NCBI GenBank assembly: GCA_019114755.1
Contig: DXEW01000026.1
Location: 1-39,293 of the forward strand
Reading direction: 5' to 3'
Origin: Candidatus Borkfalkia faecavium
GTDB lineage: Bacteria; Bacillota; Clostridia; Christensenellales; Borkfalkiaceae
DNA length: 39,293 bases
Notes under the pieces: generated by a model
The model's database searches: none
Seen by the model: the letters and a program-made list of their open reading frames with translations, nothing else
Told to the model about the DNA's origin: nothing
Made by a program: the position numbers and the translations under genes
Shown here: positions 8,950 through 34,137 of the stretch, piece by piece
How positions within the stretch are numbered: position 1 is the first letter of the stretch
Layout: each line of letters starts with the position of its first letter

Positions 8950-8974
8950 ACCAAATACAATTATTACGCGCGAC

Positions 8975-9095
8975 GAGTTGCGCCCTCCGCTTTTGGCGGG
9001 GCGCAGAGAGCAGGGGAAGGCGGTGCAAATCCGCCGCAACGCTCATTACCGTGTGCCGCCTCGGGGCGGCGAGTCGGGTAGCCTGCCGCCGCGAA
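8975..9095 (+). ncRNA. Cobalamin riboswitch (aptamer)
   Basis: The leader between the promoter and the lipoprotein gene contains the core marks of the B12 element: GGGGAAGGCGGTGCAAATCC at about 9013-9032, followed by CGCCGC, and a B12-box-like GAGTCGGGTAGCCTGCC at 9071-9087. GC-rich complementary arms lie between them (GTGCCGCCTC / GGGGCGGCGAG). A terminator hairpin follows at 9158-9193, so the aptamer most likely turns transcription off when cobalamin binds. The central CCCGCxACTG part is divergent (ATTACCGTG), which lowers certainty. The genes downstream, a DUF4430-like lipoprotein and an ECF S component, make sense as vitamin uptake functions. Confidence 0.72.
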
Positions 9096-9157
9096 GTGAT
9101 CGCTTTGCCTTTTTCGGTCGCGGAAAAAGCGCGGGCAGCGGCGCATGGCCGCAGTCT

Positions 9158-15396: not shown

Positions 15397-15426
15397 TTGA
15401 CAGAGAGCGGCAAAAAGTGATAAAAT
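15397..15426 (+). promoter_or_regulatory. Promoter of the histidine operon
   Basis: Perfect TTGACA (15397-15402), 18-bp spacer, TAAAAT (15421-15426). It shows that an ATG at 15425, inside the -10 box, cannot be the start of hisZ-hisG. No T-box or attenuator is seen in the 60-base leader. Confidence 0.8.
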
Positions 15427-15487
15427 GAAAGAAAAACGCGCATTTCCCGCATTCCCCGCGGGCGGCGCTTCGGAGAAAAAATACCGT

Positions 15488-17101
15488 ATGGCATACTTCA
15501 AACTGCCGGCGGGCGTGCGAGACGTCTTGCCGGAAGAGAGCGCCGCGCTGGACGCCGCGCAGCAAGTTTTGCGCCAAAAGTTCGCTTCCGCGGGCTTTGC
15601 CACCGTCCGCACGGCGGGGCTGGAATATTACGACACCTTCGCCTGCATCGACAGCCCCGTCGACCAGGCGCAGATGTTCAAGATGACGGATAAAGACGGC
15701 AACCTCATCGTGCTGCGGCCGGACATGACCCTCGCCTGCGCGCGCATCGCCGCCACCAAGCTGCAGGGGGCGCGGGCGCGGCTGTGCTATTTTTCGGATA
15801 TCTACGACTTTTCCGCCGGCGGCAATTCGGACAGAGAAGTGGCGCAGGCGGGCGTGGAGATCTTCGGCGAAGAGGGCGCCGAGTCGGACGCCTACGCCGT
15901 CGCCTTTGCCGCCGAGTGCCTGCGCGCCGTGGGGCTGAAGGACTTCATCATCGATATCGGCCACGTCGGCTTCTATAAGGGATTATTGGAAGGGAGCGGG
16001 CTTACCCCCGCCGCCGCCGAAGAGATCCGCGGCTACATCAACGCCAAAGACCTCGTCAACACCCAGATCGCCCTGCGCGCCGCGGGCGCGAACGCCCGCA
16101 CGCAGGCCGCCATCCTCGCCCTTCCCTCGCTGTTCGGCGGGGCGGAGGTGCTGCAAAAGGCGAAGGGGCTGACGGAGAACCCCACCGCCCTGGCGGCGCT
16201 GTCGCACCTGGAAAAGGTGTACGCCTACCTCAAACAGATGGGTGCGGAGGGCTGCGTGTCGTTTGATCTGGGCACCGTCAAAAGCCTTTCCTACTATTCG
16301 GGCATGGTGTTCACGGGGCTTGCCGAAGGGGTGGGCGCGCCCGTGCTCTCGGGCGGGCGGTACGACGGGCTGTGCGCCCAGTTCGGCCGCGACCTTTCCG
16401 CCGTCGGCTTTGCCGTGGGTATGATGCGCGTGCTGCGCGCCGGGCGGGCGCGCGGCGCCGAAAAGCCGCACGGCCCGCTCAACGTGGCGCTCGCCAAGGG
16501 GCGGCTGGCGTCGGAATGCGCAGACCTGTTCATCCGCTGCGGCATCCGCGCGGAAGTGCTCAAAGAGGACACGCGCAAGTTGGTTTTGGAAACGCCGGAC
16601 GGCAAATTCCGCTTCTTCTTCGTCAAACCTGCCGACGTGCCCACCTACGTCGAATACGGCGTGGCGGATATCGGCGTCGTCGGCAAGGATACATTGCTGG
16701 AAGCGGAGGCAGACTTATATGAGATGCTCGACCTGCGCTTCGAGCGGTGCAGGCTGTGCGTGGCGGGCTTCCCCGCCCTGAAAGACTTCGCCTCCCGCCC
16801 GCACCTGCGCGTTGCCACCAAGTACGCGCACACGGCGAAAAAGCTGTTCGCCTCGCGCGGGGCGGACGTGGAGATCATCAAGCTCAACGGCTCCATCGAG
16901 CTGGCGCCCCTCACGGGGCTTGCCGACGTCATCTTCGATATCGTCCAGTCGGGCGGCACCCTGCGCGCCAACGGGCTGGAGGTGTTGGAAGAGGTGTTCG
17001 ATATTTCCGCCCGCCTTGTCGCCAACAAGGTCAGTTTGAAGACGCGCGCGGGCGAGATACTGCCGCTCATCGCCGCCATGGCAGGCATGACGGGGGAATG
17101 A
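15488..17101 (+). CDS. hisZ-hisG: HisZ-HisG fusion: ATP phosphoribosyltransferase, regulatory plus catalytic domains
   Basis: A 537-residue fusion for the first step of histidine synthesis (ATP + PRPP to phosphoribosyl-ATP). Residues about 1-320 are HisZ, the class II aminoacyl-tRNA-synthetase-like regulatory subunit, starting FKLPAGVRDVLPEESAALD and with histidyl-tRNA-synthetase-like SGGRYDGLCAQFGRD near residue 295. Residues about 333-537 are the short-form HisG catalytic domain: LNVALAKGRLASECADLF, the substrate region YGVADIGVVGKDTLLE, and the phosphate-binding VIFDIVQSGGTLRANGLE. Short-form HisG needs HisZ for activity, so a single chain locks 1:1 stoichiometry. There is no stop or frameshift between the domains. 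I start at ATG 15488 because the promoter -10 overlaps the earlier ATG. The ribosome site (CGGAG) is weak. hisD follows after 16 bases. Confidence 0.92.
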   Translation: MAYFKLPAGVRDVLPEESAALDAAQQVLRQKFASAGFATVRTAGLEYYDTFACIDSPVDQAQMFKMTDKDGNLIVLRPDMTLACARIAATKLQGARARLCYFSDIYDFSAGGNSDREVAQAGVEIFGEEGAESDAYAVAFAAECLRAVGLKDFIIDIGHVGFYKGLLEGSGLTPAAAEEIRGYINAKDLVNTQIALRAAGANARTQAAILALPSLFGGAEVLQKAKGLTENPTALAALSHLEKVYAYLKQMGAEGCVSFDLGTVKSLSYYSGMVFTGLAEGVGAPVLSGGRYDGLCAQFGRDLSAVGFAVGMMRVLRAGRARGAEKPHGPLNVALAKGRLASECADLFIRCGIRAEVLKEDTRKLVLETPDGKFRFFFVKPADVPTYVEYGVADIGVVGKDTLLEAEADLYEMLDLRFERCRLCVAGFPALKDFASRPHLRVATKYAHTAKKLFASRGADVEIIKLNGSIELAPLTGLADVIFDIVQSGGTLRANGLEVLEEVFDISARLVANKVSLKTRAGEILPLIAAMAGMTGE

Positions 17102-17117: not shown

Positions 17118-18389
17118 ATGAAGATCTATCAAAATGCCGCAGAGGCGGCGGAAATACTGCGCCGCGGCGGCTTTGACGACGCCGAAAAGGCGCAGGCGGT
17201 GCGCGCCATCGTGGCGGACGTGCGCGAAAACGGAGACAAGGCGCTCTTTGCCTATTGTAAAAAGTTCGACGGTTCCGCGCTCATCGCGCAGACGGTGCGC
17301 GTGAGCGAAGAGGAGTTCGCCGCCGCCTACAAGGCGGTAGACAAAGAGCTGCTCTCTTCTCTGAAAAAGGCCGTCCGCAACGTATACGAGTACCACCGCC
17401 GTTCCCCCAAAGCGGAGGATATCCGCACCGAAGGGGGCAGGACGACGGGCTATACCGTCCGCCCCGTGGAACGGGCGGGCATCTATGTGCCGGGCGGCAC
17501 GGCGCCCCTTGTCAGTACGGTGCTGATGGGGGTACTGCCCGCAAAGGCGGCGGGCGTGGAGCACATCTATATGTGTACCCCCGCCAAGGAGGGGAAGGTA
17601 GACCCCGCCGTGCTGGTCGCCGCCAAAGAGTGCGGCGCCGAAGCGGTGTTCAAGGCGGGCGGCGCGCAGGCGATCGCGGCCTTGGCGTACGGCACCGAAA
17701 GCATCCCCAAGGTAGACGTCATCGCCGGTCCCGGCAATATCTATGTCACCCTCGCCAAAAAAGAGGTATACGGCGCCGTCGGCATCGATATGCTCGCCGG
17801 CCCTTCCGAGATCCTCATCATCGCCGATAAGGCGCAGGACCCCGTCTTCGTGGCGGCAGACGTATTGTCGCAGGCGGAGCACGACCGTCTCGCGCGGGCG
17901 CTCCTGCTCACCGACGATGCGGCCTTCGCCCAAAAAGTGGCGGCGGAAGTGGACAGGCAGCTGGCGCTTCTGCCCCGCAAAGACATCGCCGCCTATTCCG
18001 TCGAGCACGCGGGCGGCATCATCCTCGTCAAAGATCAGGAAGAGGCGTGCGATCTCGCCAATCAGATCGCGCCCGAGCACCTGGAGCTGGCGGCGGAAAA
18101 CTGCGAAGAGCTGCTGCCGAAGATCAAAAACGCGGGCGCGGTGTTCATGGGCAGCTATACGCCCGAACCCGTGGGCGATTACTTCGCGGGCCCCAACCAC
18201 ACCCTGCCCACCGGCGGCACGGCGCGCTTTTTTGAGGTGCTCAACCAGGATATCTTCCTGCGCAAGATGAGCGTCATCCGCTACAGCGAGCAGGCGGTGC
18301 GCGAAGACGGGCCGGACATCATCCGCCTCGCCGAAAGCGAGCACCTGCACGCGCACGCCAACGCCATCCGCGTGCGGCTGCAAAAGTAG
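17118..18389 (+). CDS. hisD: Histidinol dehydrogenase
   Basis: A 423-residue NAD-dependent zinc enzyme for the last two oxidation steps, L-histidinol to L-histidine. Typical blocks are visible: GIYVPGGTAPLVSTVLMGVLPAKAAGV, AGGAQAIAALAYGTESIPKVD, VIAGPGNIYVTLAKKEVYG, the DMLAGPSEILIIAD region, the catalytic EHDRLARALL histidine, and the C-terminal NQIAPEHLEL and GPNHTLPTGGTARF. Length is typical. Its ATG has AGGGAGGAAAGG just upstream and follows hisZ-hisG by 16 bases. The last codons (CGTGCGGCTGCAAAAG) are repeated twice more in the following gap. Confidence 0.97.
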   Translation: MKIYQNAAEAAEILRRGGFDDAEKAQAVRAIVADVRENGDKALFAYCKKFDGSALIAQTVRVSEEEFAAAYKAVDKELLSSLKKAVRNVYEYHRRSPKAEDIRTEGGRTTGYTVRPVERAGIYVPGGTAPLVSTVLMGVLPAKAAGVEHIYMCTPAKEGKVDPAVLVAAKECGAEAVFKAGGAQAIAALAYGTESIPKVDVIAGPGNIYVTLAKKEVYGAVGIDMLAGPSEILIIADKAQDPVFVAADVLSQAEHDRLARALLLTDDAAFAQKVAAEVDRQLALLPRKDIAAYSVEHAGGIILVKDQEEACDLANQIAPEHLELAAENCEELLPKIKNAGAVFMGSYTPEPVGDYFAGPNHTLPTGGTARFFEVLNQDIFLRKMSVIRYSEQAVREDGPDIIRLAESEHLHAHANAIRVRLQK

Positions 18390-26000: not shown

Positions 26001-26030
26001 GGGGTGCGCAGTATAGCGCACCCCCGTTTT
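26001..26030 (+). terminator. Terminator after ppdK
   Basis: Perfect 9-bp stem GGGGTGCGC (26001-26009) / GCGCACCCC (26016-26024), loop AGTATA, then CGTTTT. Confidence 0.88.
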
Positions 26031-26034
26031 ATAC

Positions 26035-26063
26035 TTGAATTTGGCTGCAAAATTTGGTATACT
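26035..26063 (+). promoter_or_regulatory. Promoter of the Bro-N/Fic gene
   Basis: TTGAAT (26035-26040), 17-bp spacer, TATACT (26058-26063), only 24 bases before the ATG at 26088, so the leader is very short (about 17 nt). Confidence 0.75.
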
Positions 26064-26087
26064 ATGGGCAATAACAGGGGGGCGGCC

Positions 26088-26960
26088 ATGCTGAAAACTT
26101 CCATCCGTTTTTTTGAAGATATCCCCGTGCGCGCCGTTTGGGAGGAACAAACTTCCAAATGGTGGTTTTGCGCTGCCGACATCGCCGAAGCGCTCACAAA
26201 GAGCAAAAATCCCCGTTCCTATTGGAATGCGATCAAACGCCGCAATCCGCAGTTGTCGACAATTTGTCGACAACTGAAATTAACGGCCAAGGACGGCAAA
26301 CGGTATCTGACCGACGTCGTGGACGAAGAGGGGGTAAACACCATCCTTGCCGTCATCCCGAGTAAAAAGTCGCTCGTATTCGACAAGTGGCTGAAGGGGA
26401 TGGGCACTTCCATCGACGAAAAAAGCAAGCAGAAGGCATACGAGCTGTTTGAAAGCGGGCTGATAAACGACGTTGAAGCGGGTACGGTAAAGGGCTTGCA
26501 GCAGATCCATTCCTATCTCTTCGGCGGTCTTTACGATTTTGCAGGGAAAATAAGGGGGCTGAATATCGCCAAGGGCGGGTTCGCCTTTGCGCCTGCCATG
26601 TACCTGAACGAAAACCTTGCGCGCATCGAGAAAATGCCCGAAGATGCCATCGAGCATATCGTCAAAAAGTATGTGGAGATGAACATCGCCCATCCGTTCA
26701 TGGAAGGCAACGGCAGGGCAACGCGCATCTGGCTTGATCTGATCTTGAAGAAGAACCTGCACACCTGCACCGATTGGAGCAAGATAAATAAGCGCGAATA
26801 TTTGCAGGCGATGAAGGAAAGCCCTGTGGACGCATCGCATATTTTTGCGCTCATCAAGGGCGCCCAAACGCCGCAGATCGACGACAGGGAACTCTTTATG
26901 AAGGGCATAGACTATTCGTATTATTACGAAGAGGCCGATGAAGAATATTTAAAGTGGTAA
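26088..26960 (+). CDS. Bro-N / Fic-domain protein (putative AMPylating toxin or regulator)
   Basis: A 290-residue protein. Residues about 5-100 look like a Bro-N domain ([48 protein letters not shown]), a DNA-binding module common in phage antirepressors. Residues about 110-275 are a Fic fold: [20 protein letters not shown], then the canonical catalytic loop [12 protein letters not shown] (202-213) with catalytic His202. Fic enzymes transfer AMP from ATP to protein hydroxyl groups. The C-terminal helix contains S277-YYY-E281, resembling the (S/T)xxxE inhibitory motif of class III Fic proteins, which could explain the absence of a separate antitoxin gene. I start at ATG 26088 because the promoter covers the upstream frame. 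It is likely mobile accessory DNA; its target is unknown. Confidence 0.85.
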
Positions 26961-31525: not shown

Positions 31526-31566
31526 GCATGCGTGACGCGCACCGAAGGCTTTCTTTTTGAATGGTA

Positions 31567-31653
31567 AATGTAGAATGTAGAATTTCGGAAGGGAAAATAT
31601 TTTTATTGCATCCTTAATTTTACATTTTACATTTTACACTTTACATTTTACAT
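31567..31653. mobile_element. Hairpin of AATGTAG / TTTACAT repeats (MITE-like or repeat element)
   Basis: AATGTAGAATGTAGAATT (31567-31584) can pair with AATTTTACATTTTACATT (31616-31633): 18 bp with two G-U pairs. The right side is a tandem array of five 7-mers TTTACAT (31619-31653, the third TTTACAC). The left side has two AATGTAG units. No gene is inside. It has the look of a small non-autonomous element or a slipped repeat. Confidence 0.5.
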
Positions 31654-31661
31654 TTTCAGGG

Positions 31662-31758: not shown

Positions 31759-31787
31759 GTTGACAAATGCGGCGGCGCATGCTATAC
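31759..31787 (+). promoter_or_regulatory. Promoter of the T-box-trpBA unit
   Basis: Perfect TTGACA (31759-31764), 17-bp spacer, TATACT (31782-31787), directly before the T-box leader. Confidence 0.88.
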
Positions 31788-31809
31788 TGTTTTCCGATAT
31801 ATATAAACC

Positions 31810-32098
31810 GTTGATGCGGAGATAACGGCGATCATGCCTTTACAGAGAGCCCGCGCTGCTGAGAGTCGGGTAAGAGACAAGTCGTCAAATGGACCGCGGA
31901 GGGTGCAGTCAAATGCGCGGCGGGTGCAGCAAATGCGCCGCCCGGCGCAGAGTATTCTGCAACGTGCCGGCATACGTCAGTTGCCGCAGGGGTTTCCCCG
32001 CAGAGCGCACGGCATCGCCGTGAACACAAGGTGGCACCGCGGATAATTTCGTATTATTCGTCCTTGGCAGAGCTTTCCGCCTGCCGAGGGCTTTTTTT
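31810..32098 (+). ncRNA. Tryptophan T-box leader with terminator
   Basis: The leader between the promoter and trpB has the T-box plan. Stem I has the conserved ACAGAGAGCCCGC...GAGAGTCGGGTAAGAGAC region (31842-31879), and the specifier TGG (31890-31892) is followed by ACC as usual, indicating tRNA-Trp. The T-box bulge sequence AACACAAGGTGGCACCGCGG lies at 32023-32042, followed by CGTCC. The competing terminator is CCTTGGCAG (32062-32070) / CTGCCGAGG (32081-32089), then C and seven T. Uncharged tRNA-Trp should favour antitermination and expression of trpB-trpA. Confidence 0.92.
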
Positions 32099-32163
32099 GT
32101 GCCCTTGCGGGCAAGGCGCGGAGGCGCAGGTAAAAAGCGGAGAAAAGCAAAAGGAGAGAGCAA

Positions 32164-33354
32164 ATGACGAATCCGAACGGGCGCTTCGGCATCCACGGCG
32201 GGCAGTATGTGCCCGAGGGGCTGATGAACGCCGTCAACGAACTGGAACGGGCGTACGATTTTTACAAGCAGGACGCCGCCTTCAACGCGGAGCTTTCCGC
32301 GCTTTTGAACGACTACGCGGGCAGGCCTTCGCGCCTGTACTATGCCGCCAAGATGACGCAGGACCTCGGCGGGGCGAAGATCTATTTGAAGCGCGAAGAC
32401 CTCAACCACACGGGCGCGCACAAGATCAACAACGTGCTGGGGCAGGCGCTACTCGCCAAGCGCATGGGCAAGACCCGCCTCATCGCCGAAACGGGCGCGG
32501 GGCAGCACGGCGTGGCCACTGCCACGGCCGCGGCGCTGATGGGCATGGAGTGCGTCGTGTTCATGGGGGAAGAAGACACCAAGCGCCAGGCGCTCAACGT
32601 CTACCGCATGCGCCTTTTGGGCGCGGAGGTGGTCGCCGTCAAGTCGGGCACAGCTACCCTCAAAGACGCCGTCTCTGCGGCGATGCGCGAATGGGCATCC
32701 CGCCTGTCGGATACCCATTACTGCCTCGGTTCGGTGATGGGCCCGCATCCCTTCCCCACCATCGTGCGCGATTTTCAGGCGGTCATCTCCAAAGAGATCA
32801 AGCAGCAGATGCTGCAAAAGGAAGGCCGCCTGCCCGATGCCGTCGTCGCCTGCGTGGGCGGCGGTTCCAACGCCATCGGCAGCTTCTATCATTTTATCAA
32901 AGACAAGGGCGTGCGCCTCATCGGCTGCGAGGCGGCGGGCCGCGGGGTAGACACCTTTGAAACGGCCGCCACCATCGCCACGGGCAAGCTCGGCATCTTC
33001 CACGGCATGAAGTCCTACTTCTGCCAGGACGACCAGGGGCAGATCGCGCCCGTGTACTCCATTTCTGCCGGGCTCGACTACCCCGGCGTCGGCCCCGAGC
33101 ACGCCTGGCTGCACGATACGGGCAGGGCGGAATACGTCCCCGTCACCGACGGCGAGGCGGTAGACGCCTTCGAATACCTGGCGCGCACCGAGGGCATCAT
33201 TCCCGCCATCGAATCGGCGCACGCCGTCGCCTACGCCAAAAAGCTCGCCCCGCAGCTGGGGAAGGACAAAATTATCGTCATCACCGTCTCGGGCAGGGGA
33301 GATAAAGACTGCGCCGCCATCGCGCGGTACAGGGGGGAGGAGATCTATGAATAA
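32164..33354 (+). CDS. trpB: Tryptophan synthase beta chain
   Basis: A 396-residue PLP enzyme joining indole and L-serine to L-tryptophan. The PLP Lys87 is in HTGAHKINN, the catalytic ETGAGQHG motif follows (with the Glu that interacts with indole), and the phosphate-binding loop [11 protein letters not shown] is near residue 234. It is of the canonical TrpB1 type (residues such as [13 protein letters not shown] at the N-terminus), not the TrpB2 type. AAAGGAGAGAG precedes the ATG. It overlaps trpA by 8 bases and is under the Trp T-box. No trpE, D, C or F genes lie nearby, so the cell may depend on imported indole or make the precursor elsewhere. Confidence 0.97.
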
Positions 33355-34096
33355 TTTGGCAGCCGCCTTTGCGGGCGGCAAGGCGTTCATCGCCTTCATC
33401 ATCTGCGGCGACCCCGACCTGGAAACGAGTGCCGCCTGCGTCCGCGCAGCGGCGGAAAACGGGGCGGACATCATCGAACTGGGCGTCCCCTTTTCCGACC
33501 CCACCTCGGAAGGGCCGGAAGTGCAGAGCGCCAACGTACGCGCCCTGCGCGGCGGCGTCACGGTGGATCAAATTTTTGCCATGTTGAAGAACTTACGGGC
33601 GGAAGTTGCGGCGCCCTTCGTGCTGCGCGCCTATGCCAACGTCGTCTTTTCTTACGGCATCGAGCGCTTTGCCGCCGCCTGCGCCGAGGCGGGCGTTTTG
33701 GGGCTTGTGCTCACCGACGTTCCCTTTGAAGAGAAGGAAGAGTTCGCCGCGCCCTGCCGCGCCTGCGGCGTCAGCCTCATTTCCGTGGTCACGCCCGCAT
33801 CCCGCGGCCGCATCGGCAGGATCGCGCGCGAGGCGGAAGGTTTTTTGTACGCCGCTGCGGGCAGGGGAGAAGAGGGCGGCCTCTCGTCCGTCATCGAAGA
33901 GGCGAAAAAGGTCTGCCCCGTGCCCTGCGTCGTGTGGGCAGACATCGCCGCGCCCGCGGGGGCGAAGGCGCTGTGCGGGGCGGAAGACGGCATCGCCGCC
34001 GATACGCAGCCGGTGCGCATCGCCGCCAAATACGGCAAACAGGCGCCCGCGCACATCGGCGCCTTTGTAAAAGAGATCAAAGCAGCCCTGCGCTGA
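33347..34096 (+). CDS. trpA: Tryptophan synthase alpha chain homologue with degenerate phosphate site
   Basis: A 249-residue TrpA-family (beta/alpha)8 protein, translationally coupled to trpB. Well conserved: N-terminal half, catalytic Glu44 in [15 protein letters not shown] with Glu55 in place of the Asp60 of E. coli (common in clostridial TrpA), Tyr96 in AYANVVF, and Tyr168. Degenerate: loop 6, normally GVTG followed by an acidic or basic stretch, is replaced by [10 protein letters not shown] (169-178). The first phosphate motif GFGIS is WADIA (Asp199 for Gly213), and the second GSA is DTQ (Asp219 for Gly234, Thr220 for Ser235). There is no stop or frameshift. Indoleglycerol-phosphate cleavage is therefore doubtful; a role as structural or allosteric partner of TrpB is more likely. 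Confidence 0.9.
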
Positions 34097-34108
34097 GGCG
34101 GGGCGCTC

Positions 34109-34137
34109 CGCCGCGGCAATTTTGCCGCGGCGTTTTT
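34109..34137 (+). terminator. Terminator after trpBA
   Basis: Stem CGCCGCGGCAA (34109-34119) / TTGCCGCGGCG (34122-34132), effectively a 9-10 bp stem with a small loop, then TTTTT (34133-34137). Confidence 0.9.

Follow-up and report, generated by a model that had tools for sequence, protein, structure and literature searches.

A degenerate tryptophan synthase alpha subunit behind a tryptophan T-box in Candidatus Borkfalkia faecavium: a probable dead lyase kept as the partner of TrpB for indole salvage

Tryptophan synthase is a textbook allosteric two-enzyme complex, and the subject of this report is a trpB-trpA unit for it, found behind a tryptophan (Trp) T-box leader in a 39,293-nucleotide stretch of Candidatus Borkfalkia faecavium DNA (contig DXEW01000026.1 of assembly GCA_019114755.1, positions 1 to 39,293; the whole stretch is called the window below), the alpha subunit of which, TrpA, appears to have lost most of the site holding the phosphate of its substrate, indoleglycerol phosphate (IGP). 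We consider it quite probable, judging from the sequences, that this is a salvage tryptophan synthase, i.e., that TrpA, dead as an IGP lyase, has been retained as the partner of the beta subunit, TrpB, for indole salvage.

The nearest described system is that of Chlamydia trachomatis, the TrpBA of which was reportedly studied by Michalska et al. in 2021, a work said to be the source cited for a four-fold effect on TrpB and to have yielded the structure PDB 6V82. There, going by the accessible text of both sources, a catalytically impaired TrpA has been reported to increase the activity of TrpB four-fold (PMC9378776) and to have a structural, not an enzymatic, role, with changes in the sequence of its loop 6 (PMC4042155). 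The window resembles this system in that the upstream pathway was not found in its genome (indoleglycerol phosphate synthase, IGPS; phosphoribosylanthranilate isomerase, PRAI; and the chorismate-binding protein were searched, with trpD and trpG outside the search), and in that its TrpA seems to lack the IGP phosphate site and its TrpB site seems intact. It differs in that Chlamydia trachomatis belongs to another phylum, uses TrpR/YtgR repression and represents one intracellular lineage, whereas here there are a T-box, repeated origins in Clostridia and acidic residues often standing at the phosphate ligands, the present case being known from sequence alone.

Four further systems, all taken from the accessible portions of their sources, touch on parts of the proposal. 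The 14 human gut strains of variant A1 have TrpA and TrpB as their sole pathway enzymes and need indole precursors, nothing being said in that portion, unlike here, on how well the TrpA active site is preserved (PMC9026213); gut Bifidobacterium converts exogenous indole to tryptophan via TrpB, as proposed here, but with TrpB fused to TrpC and with TrpA inactivity unclaimed in the text at hand (PMC11085991). The eudicot TSB-like pseudoenzyme is likewise a catalytically dead tryptophan synthase subunit retained as its partner's activator, but in mirror image, as a dead beta paralog activates alpha and indole is released (PMC12727527). The stand-alone TrpB of Pelodictyon luteolum is a natural TrpB managing with little TrpA activation, its special residues sitting in TrpB, whereas here the conserved TrpB positions are nearly unchanged and TrpA is retained (PMC11917138). 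Our literature search, with most subscription papers outside its reach, showed no paper on degenerate TrpA in Clostridia among the entries listed; an impaired TrpA is a kind already known from Chlamydia trachomatis, whereas the recurrence in Clostridia, the Trp T-box and the acidic replacements at phosphate ligands were not found in the literature searched.

The T-box leader and the trpBA unit of the window

The trp operon of the window consists of a Trp T-box leader and trpB-trpA only, the latter two being open frames with an 8-base overlap. Its features are as follows:

31760-31788, + strand: putative sigma-70-like promoter, by eye (TTGACA at 31760-31765, 17-base spacer, TATACT at 31783-31788)
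31802-32068, + strand: T-box leader RF00230 (full model 1-219, 78.1 bits, E 4e-17)
31890-31892, + strand: T-box specifier codon TGG (Trp; UGG in RNA), in CAAATGGACCGCGG, leader position 88
about 32063-32098, + strand: T-box terminator hairpin followed by T7, by eye from the sequence
32164-33354, + strand: trpB, tryptophan synthase beta, 396 aa (TIGR00263, 641.7 bits vs. cut-off 392.45)
33347-34096, + strand: trpA, degenerate alpha subunit, 249 aa (NCBIfam TIGR00262, 173.6 bits vs. curated cut-off 102.35; Pfam PF00290, 178.9 vs. 27)
33488-33502, + strand: alpha loop 2 motif PFSDP, residues 48-52 (E. coli 53-57), TrpB contact, kept in 15/15 degenerate TrpAs
33860-33880, + strand: remnant GRGEEGG of loop 6 / the GVTG phosphate loop, residues 172-178, within a 12-residue stretch in place of 19
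33941-33943, + strand: Asp199 replacing phosphate ligand Gly213, by alignment to E. coli TrpA
34001-34003, + strand: Asp219 replacing phosphate ligand Gly234, by the same alignment

The full-model RF00230 match, together with the TGG, bears out the original prediction of a tryptophan-specific T-box ahead of trpB-trpA; its score comes from an 801-base scan and lies below the Rfam gathering score of 93, which is why a whole-window scan at gathering scores does not list it. The T-box motif reads GGTGGCACCGCG (by eye), and in the related leaders inspected TGG stands at leader positions 85-92. Between the GH127 gene and the putative promoter (31560-31660), A/T-rich repeats of the TTTTACA / TGTAGAATG type can be seen by eye, perhaps an intergenic repeat element.

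By alignment to E. coli TrpA (the numbering of which is used throughout) and by structure prediction, the window TrpA keeps its fold and the loops contacting TrpB, and not its substrate-phosphate site or a full loop 6. Catalytic Glu49 (E44), Tyr102 (Y96), Tyr175 (Y168) and F22 are kept; the earlier reading of Glu44 and both tyrosines as retained, and of aspartates in place of Gly213 and Gly234, agrees with this alignment, in which Gly211 (W197), Phe212 (A198), Thr183 (E176) and Ser235 (T220) are altered as well. Within the phosphate-site set T183/G184/G211/G213/G234/S235, G184 alone (aligned with G177) is retained, all six being present, along with E49, Y175 and F212, in 54/54 intact relatives; the substrate- and phosphate-ligand roles of these residues are those that we take them to have in the Salmonella structures. 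The replacement of Asp60 by E55 was also considered as a loss and rejected, because Glu occupies this position in most intact relatives; Glu49 and the acid at position 60 are, then, both there. The predicted loss of the GVTG loop held up in part: the stretch corresponding to 177-195, with loop 6, is cut to 12 residues, as opposed to 19 in 54/54 intact proteins, but the GRGEEGG remnant stays. According to the accessible text of one study (PMC6608616), loop 6 deletions and point mutations strongly lower alpha activity, changes in loop 2 Asp56 and Pro57 matter chiefly inside the complex, and the main chain of loop 6 Gly181 in the Salmonella enzyme hydrogen-bonds beta-Ser178.

TrpA alone, modelled with 43 relatives from named records, is confidently predicted as a TIM barrel (mean predicted local distance difference test score, pLDDT, 91.6; predicted template modelling score, pTM, 0.90) that is poor (pLDDT < 50) solely at residues 174-176, within the loop 6 remnant, which covers TrpA by itself within the structural check proposed with the original prediction. 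The model aligns with solved TrpA chains at template modelling (TM) scores of up to 0.93 (6ouy: TM 0.92, root-mean-square deviation 1.9), with the reservation that 42/43 other alignment rows are canonical and may pull it toward the canonical fold.

TrpB, which had been thought to look fully active, does so by its conserved positions: at 22 sites that we take to be catalytic, pyridoxal-phosphate-binding or neighbouring ones, its residues match the pattern most frequent in the intact set (39/54), and the sole departure among the degenerate loci checked is E350K in genome G953 (genomes are given here by G numbers and loci by L numbers). Across the degenerate loci, the TrpB positions conserved to at least 95% in the intact set are kept in 2539/2565 cells, the TrpA equivalents in 493/720.

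TrpA state and the tryptophan pathway in related genomes

The draft assembly to which the window belongs as one contig comprises 1.73 Mb in 38 contigs and is 89.9% complete, and the genome search called for by the original prediction yielded one TrpA, no second, normal trpA, and no IGPS/TrpC, PRAI/TrpF or chorismate-binding TrpE (trpD, trpG and tnaA were outside the genome-wide search). An assembly gap as the only cause of the missing trpC is unlikely, because T-box and trpB are neighbours on one contig and none of TrpC, TrpF and TrpE was found. Among the 40 genomes of the genus searched, TrpA is present in two, this one and G171, the TrpA of which is also degenerate and carries E49Q. As a separate observation, histidine synthesis genes are present in the window where tryptophan synthesis has been lost: one open frame (15425-17101, + strand) joins a histidyl-tRNA-synthetase-like domain of the HisZ type to HisG, and histidinol dehydrogenase adjoins it (17118-18389).

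Degenerate TrpA is a recurrent pattern in the genomes sampled from the order (Christensenellales) that are without TrpC. TrpA is borne by 10/201 genomes of the family and 52/396 of the order, 59 when pooled, and these 59 were searched for IGPS: it is above the cut-off in 47, with the primary TrpA intact in 47/47, and below it in 12, nine of which have a degenerate TrpA (G000, G022, G171, G264, G324, G435, G447, G552, G557; in G264, G324 and G447, IGPS matches reach 20-21 bits, short of the cut-off). The association is strong by Fisher's test (1.8e-8, uncorrected for kinship), and TrpF and TrpE, sought in 23 of the 59 genomes, were found in none of the nine. The alignment of relatives thus came out as the original prediction needed it to, with the primary TrpA canonical where the pathway is present and the site lost in pathway-less members, and clade-specific phosphate binding at the altered positions was rejected, as pathway-bearing relatives have the canonical site.

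Beyond the order, a class sample of 393 genomes gave a TrpA match in 198, of which 181 are strong and outside the order (11 genomes with matches worse than 1e-6 and six order-sample genomes being excluded). IGPS is above the cut-off in 174 of the 181 and absent from seven, and it is in the seven, not the 174, that TrpA sites were aligned: a degenerate TrpA stands beside TrpB in G680, G718 and G760, and G852 and G863 have distant TrpA-like proteins with no TrpB within the 4.5 and 6.5 kb examined, for which reason these two were excluded from the TrpBA counts. At L167 and L169 (G863, G787), distant TrpA-like proteins retain Glu49 and some of the phosphate site; another weak match lies close by, and the 6.5 kb examined showed no TrpB. 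Among named genomes, the best 80 of 578 matches to two canonical peptide patterns comprise 79 that are canonical at eight site positions and one degenerate TrpA, L086, from a Faecalicatena metagenome record, which lies in a T-box-trpBA unit, carries G184D, G211N and G213D, and has no trpC match within 8.8 kb.

The phosphate site is also lost in a few second or unlinked TrpA copies. G230, with IGPS, PRAI, TrpE and an intact TrpA, has a second T-box-trpBA with a degenerate TrpA (L054, contig 1, 35671-39878; G230b), and in G870 a second, degenerate copy (G870b) adjoins a trpB truncated at the contig start. A second, distant TrpA-like protein with canonical site residues was seen in IGPS-less G276 (L044, from 6925), some 3.7 kb from its T-box-trpBA.

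One genus, that of G333, with TrpA above the cut-off in 8/14 genomes, offers a natural series of full or near-full, relic and degenerate states. G949 and G950 show consecutive trpE, trpD, trpC/F, trpB and trpA matches with a T-box before trpE, and G946 has trpC/F upstream on a contig beginning inside the operon, TrpA being intact in all three; G333 has a T-box, a trpF relic (a 95-codon frame directly upstream of trpB, matching the TrpF end only) and trpBA, with TrpA intact; G435, G557 and G948 have a T-box and trpBA with TrpA degenerate; and G953 has a T-box, trpD and trpBA, with a degenerate TrpA carrying E49V. The likely path, as we infer it from these loci, is that the DNA between leader and trpB was deleted first and that the IGP site then eroded.

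Adding G944, G948 and G953 to the nine order genomes and G680, G718 and G760 gives the 15 degenerate TrpAs considered below, trpC being absent genome-wide in 12 and from 5.4-6.5 kb of locus in the three added. A T-box precedes the trpBA unit in 14/15 loci (the G435 match, cut by the locus end, is weak at 44.8 bits), the exception being G171, where none was found in about 1.3 kb upstream and the RNase P gene lies there. TGG stands in the specifier region of 19/19 leaders inspected, a set outside which G435 falls and in which the register is less sure for G230b because it has several TGGs.

Recurrence, retention and rates

The final TrpB tree has 66 rows, 17 of them degenerate, L086 and G230b included (E. 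coli, G204, G243, G285, G220, G652 and G870b were left off; G276b, G462b, G265b, G852, G863 and G787b are absent from the final TrpA alignment; and G612, L086, G230b and G870b belong to neither the 54 intact nor the 15 degenerate rows). On it, the degenerate state needs 10 changes (gains or losses), six of them forced by supported branches, and the same numbers came from an earlier, quickly built tree in which 14 rows were degenerate. Two clades are purely degenerate with members from different families (G435, G953, G324, G552 and G944; G760, G557, G447 and G948), a sign, perhaps, that these lineages have long been degenerate or that transfer has occurred between them. In six independent pairs on supported branches, degeneracy goes with trpC loss in 5.7/6 on average and never the opposite way (median p 0.031, range 0.031-0.063), trpC absence being coded by genome search where one was made and by locus for G944, G948, G953, L086 and G230b (the genome of the last has TrpC elsewhere), with G283 excluded.

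All 15 degenerate TrpA frames are open to the stop codon, and ten positions that presumably contact TrpB (P53, F54, S55, D56, P57, N104, D130, P132, E134 and E135) are unchanged in 15/15; 13 contact positions were drawn up, with 107, 108 and 131 uncounted, as they are unconserved in intact TrpAs. Near-invariant non-contact positions, e.g., G26, D27, G44, G110, F114, R161 and G172, are also kept in 15/15, so part of the constraint is that of the fold. In 12/15, the stretch 177-195 has fewer than 19 residues, only one fewer in G171 and G557. The interface-bearing residues 1-170 are under purifying selection, though less of it than in intact pairs, and constraint has slackened further in the remainder of the protein: in nine pairs from the degenerate clades, the nonsynonymous to synonymous ratio taken as pN/pS is 0.35-0.53 over residues 1-170, with upper bounds below 0.7 in all. 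The original argument for selection rather than decay thus stands, in this weakened form, for the interface part of the degenerate sisters; no close strain of the window's own species, as DNA rate tests on its branch would need, was found among the 40 genomes of the genus, two with TrpA.

A number of points weigh against reading TrpA as a dead lyase kept for TrpB. An intact TrpA is found in the absence of IGPS above the cut-off in G276, G333 and G283 of the order (in G283, the absence of trpC is probably an assembly gap, since the genome has TrpE and TrpF and its trpBA lies on a 3.4 kb contig); of the IGPS-less class genomes, G652 has an intact TrpB-TrpA fusion with trpD alongside (L162, a single 675-codon frame), and G612 a contig-end fragment of the C-terminal part only, its sites intact. 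Incompleteness matters too, both for the window genome and for G171 (83% complete). Retention at the six phosphate positions stands at 1, 2, 5, 5, 6 and 7 of 15 (contact vs. phosphate, Mann-Whitney 2e-4), but it is low by definition, because the 15 proteins were chosen for a lost phosphate site, and only the other retention is evidence; Glu49 is kept in 12/15 and Tyr102 in 14/15, which exceeds what pure loss of catalysis would lead one to expect. The contact list is, save for loop 2 Asp56 and Pro57, our own assumption, and loop 6 Gly181 is kept in 4/15, so switching by loop 6 is probably gone, with the loop 2/3 contacts alone left. As regards rates, dN/dS, built on nearly saturated dS, is higher over residues 1-170 in degenerate pairs (0.17-0.35 in the five computable of nine) than in intact ones (0.08-0.17; six pairs, values where defined), and over the C-terminal rest it is 0.33-0.81 in seven degenerate-clade pairs vs. 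0.07-0.22 in intact ones, the pN/pS interval reaching 1 in two of the nine.

The faster C-terminal part would also suit a pseudogene in the making, with trpB alone useful and trpA lingering after recent pathway loss, as would the scattering of most degenerate rows among intact ones on the TrpB tree and the trpF relic of G333, which implies that the loss is recent in some. We nevertheless regard this explanation as unlikely, given that all 15 frames are open, the ten contact positions are unchanged, the degenerate-only clades of five and four members keep the constraint on residues 1-170, and the sparing of one face is not expected from neutral decay.

What the retained subunit may do

Still less probable is that TrpBA has become mainly a serine deaminase, in which TrpB, with no glyceraldehyde 3-phosphate (G3P) binding at TrpA, would beta-eliminate serine, with pyruvate and ammonia as products. 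In its favour, most degenerate TrpAs have a shortened loop 6, and for Chlamydia trachomatis it has been discussed that a TrpA unable to bind IGP and altered in loop 6 would free beta-elimination from its restraint (PMC4042155), but a tryptophan-specific T-box links expression to the need for tryptophan and not to serine supply. A new catalytic role, with Glu49, Tyr102 and the barrel kept for a phosphate-less substrate, is very improbable, for despite the retention of these two residues and of F22 (14/15), pocket replacements vary by lineage with no shared new motif seen, E49 has become Q in G171, L in G552 and V in G953, and 15/15 adjoin trpB.

With TrpA as a dead lyase and partner of TrpB, scarcity of charged tRNA-Trp would lead to readthrough at the T-box; TrpA, no longer cleaving IGP, would hold TrpB in its active form; and TrpB would join serine to indole diffusing in from indole-making neighbours. 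The reason for keeping TrpA would be that TrpB needs it, whether structurally or allosterically. For the bacterium of the window, activation of TrpB by TrpA and the use of environmental indole are inferred.

More tentatively, and with considerable doubt, TrpA might have been remodelled convergently into a permanently open indole funnel and an always-on activator of TrpB, through loop 6 loss and acidic replacements at phosphate ligands: without its loop 6 lid, the tunnel would admit external indole at its alpha end, and the acidic residues at the ligand positions would mimic or exclude the sugar phosphate, leaving TrpB active without a ligand. The acidic share of replacements at G184/G211/G213/G234/S235 is 17/43 vs. 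32/203 at control positions (15 proteins, P 0.0012) and 21/51 vs. 36/231 with 18 proteins, in a test that is post hoc, counts related proteins as independent and relies on the alignment near gaps.

Elsewhere in the window, a cobalamin riboswitch (8957-9104, + strand; 32.1 vs. gathering score 31.5) and a frame in which a Fic domain follows a Bro-N domain (26004-26960, + strand) were seen.

TrpAs that repeatedly lose the substrate site and keep the partner-facing loops would separate the two functions of this subunit, making the contacts that activate TrpB testable, and the genus of G333 provides a natural series. The annotation of trpA together with trpB need not mean that IGP is cleaved, and a degenerate TrpA might mark, at the genome level, those bacteria that rely on indole from other microbes.

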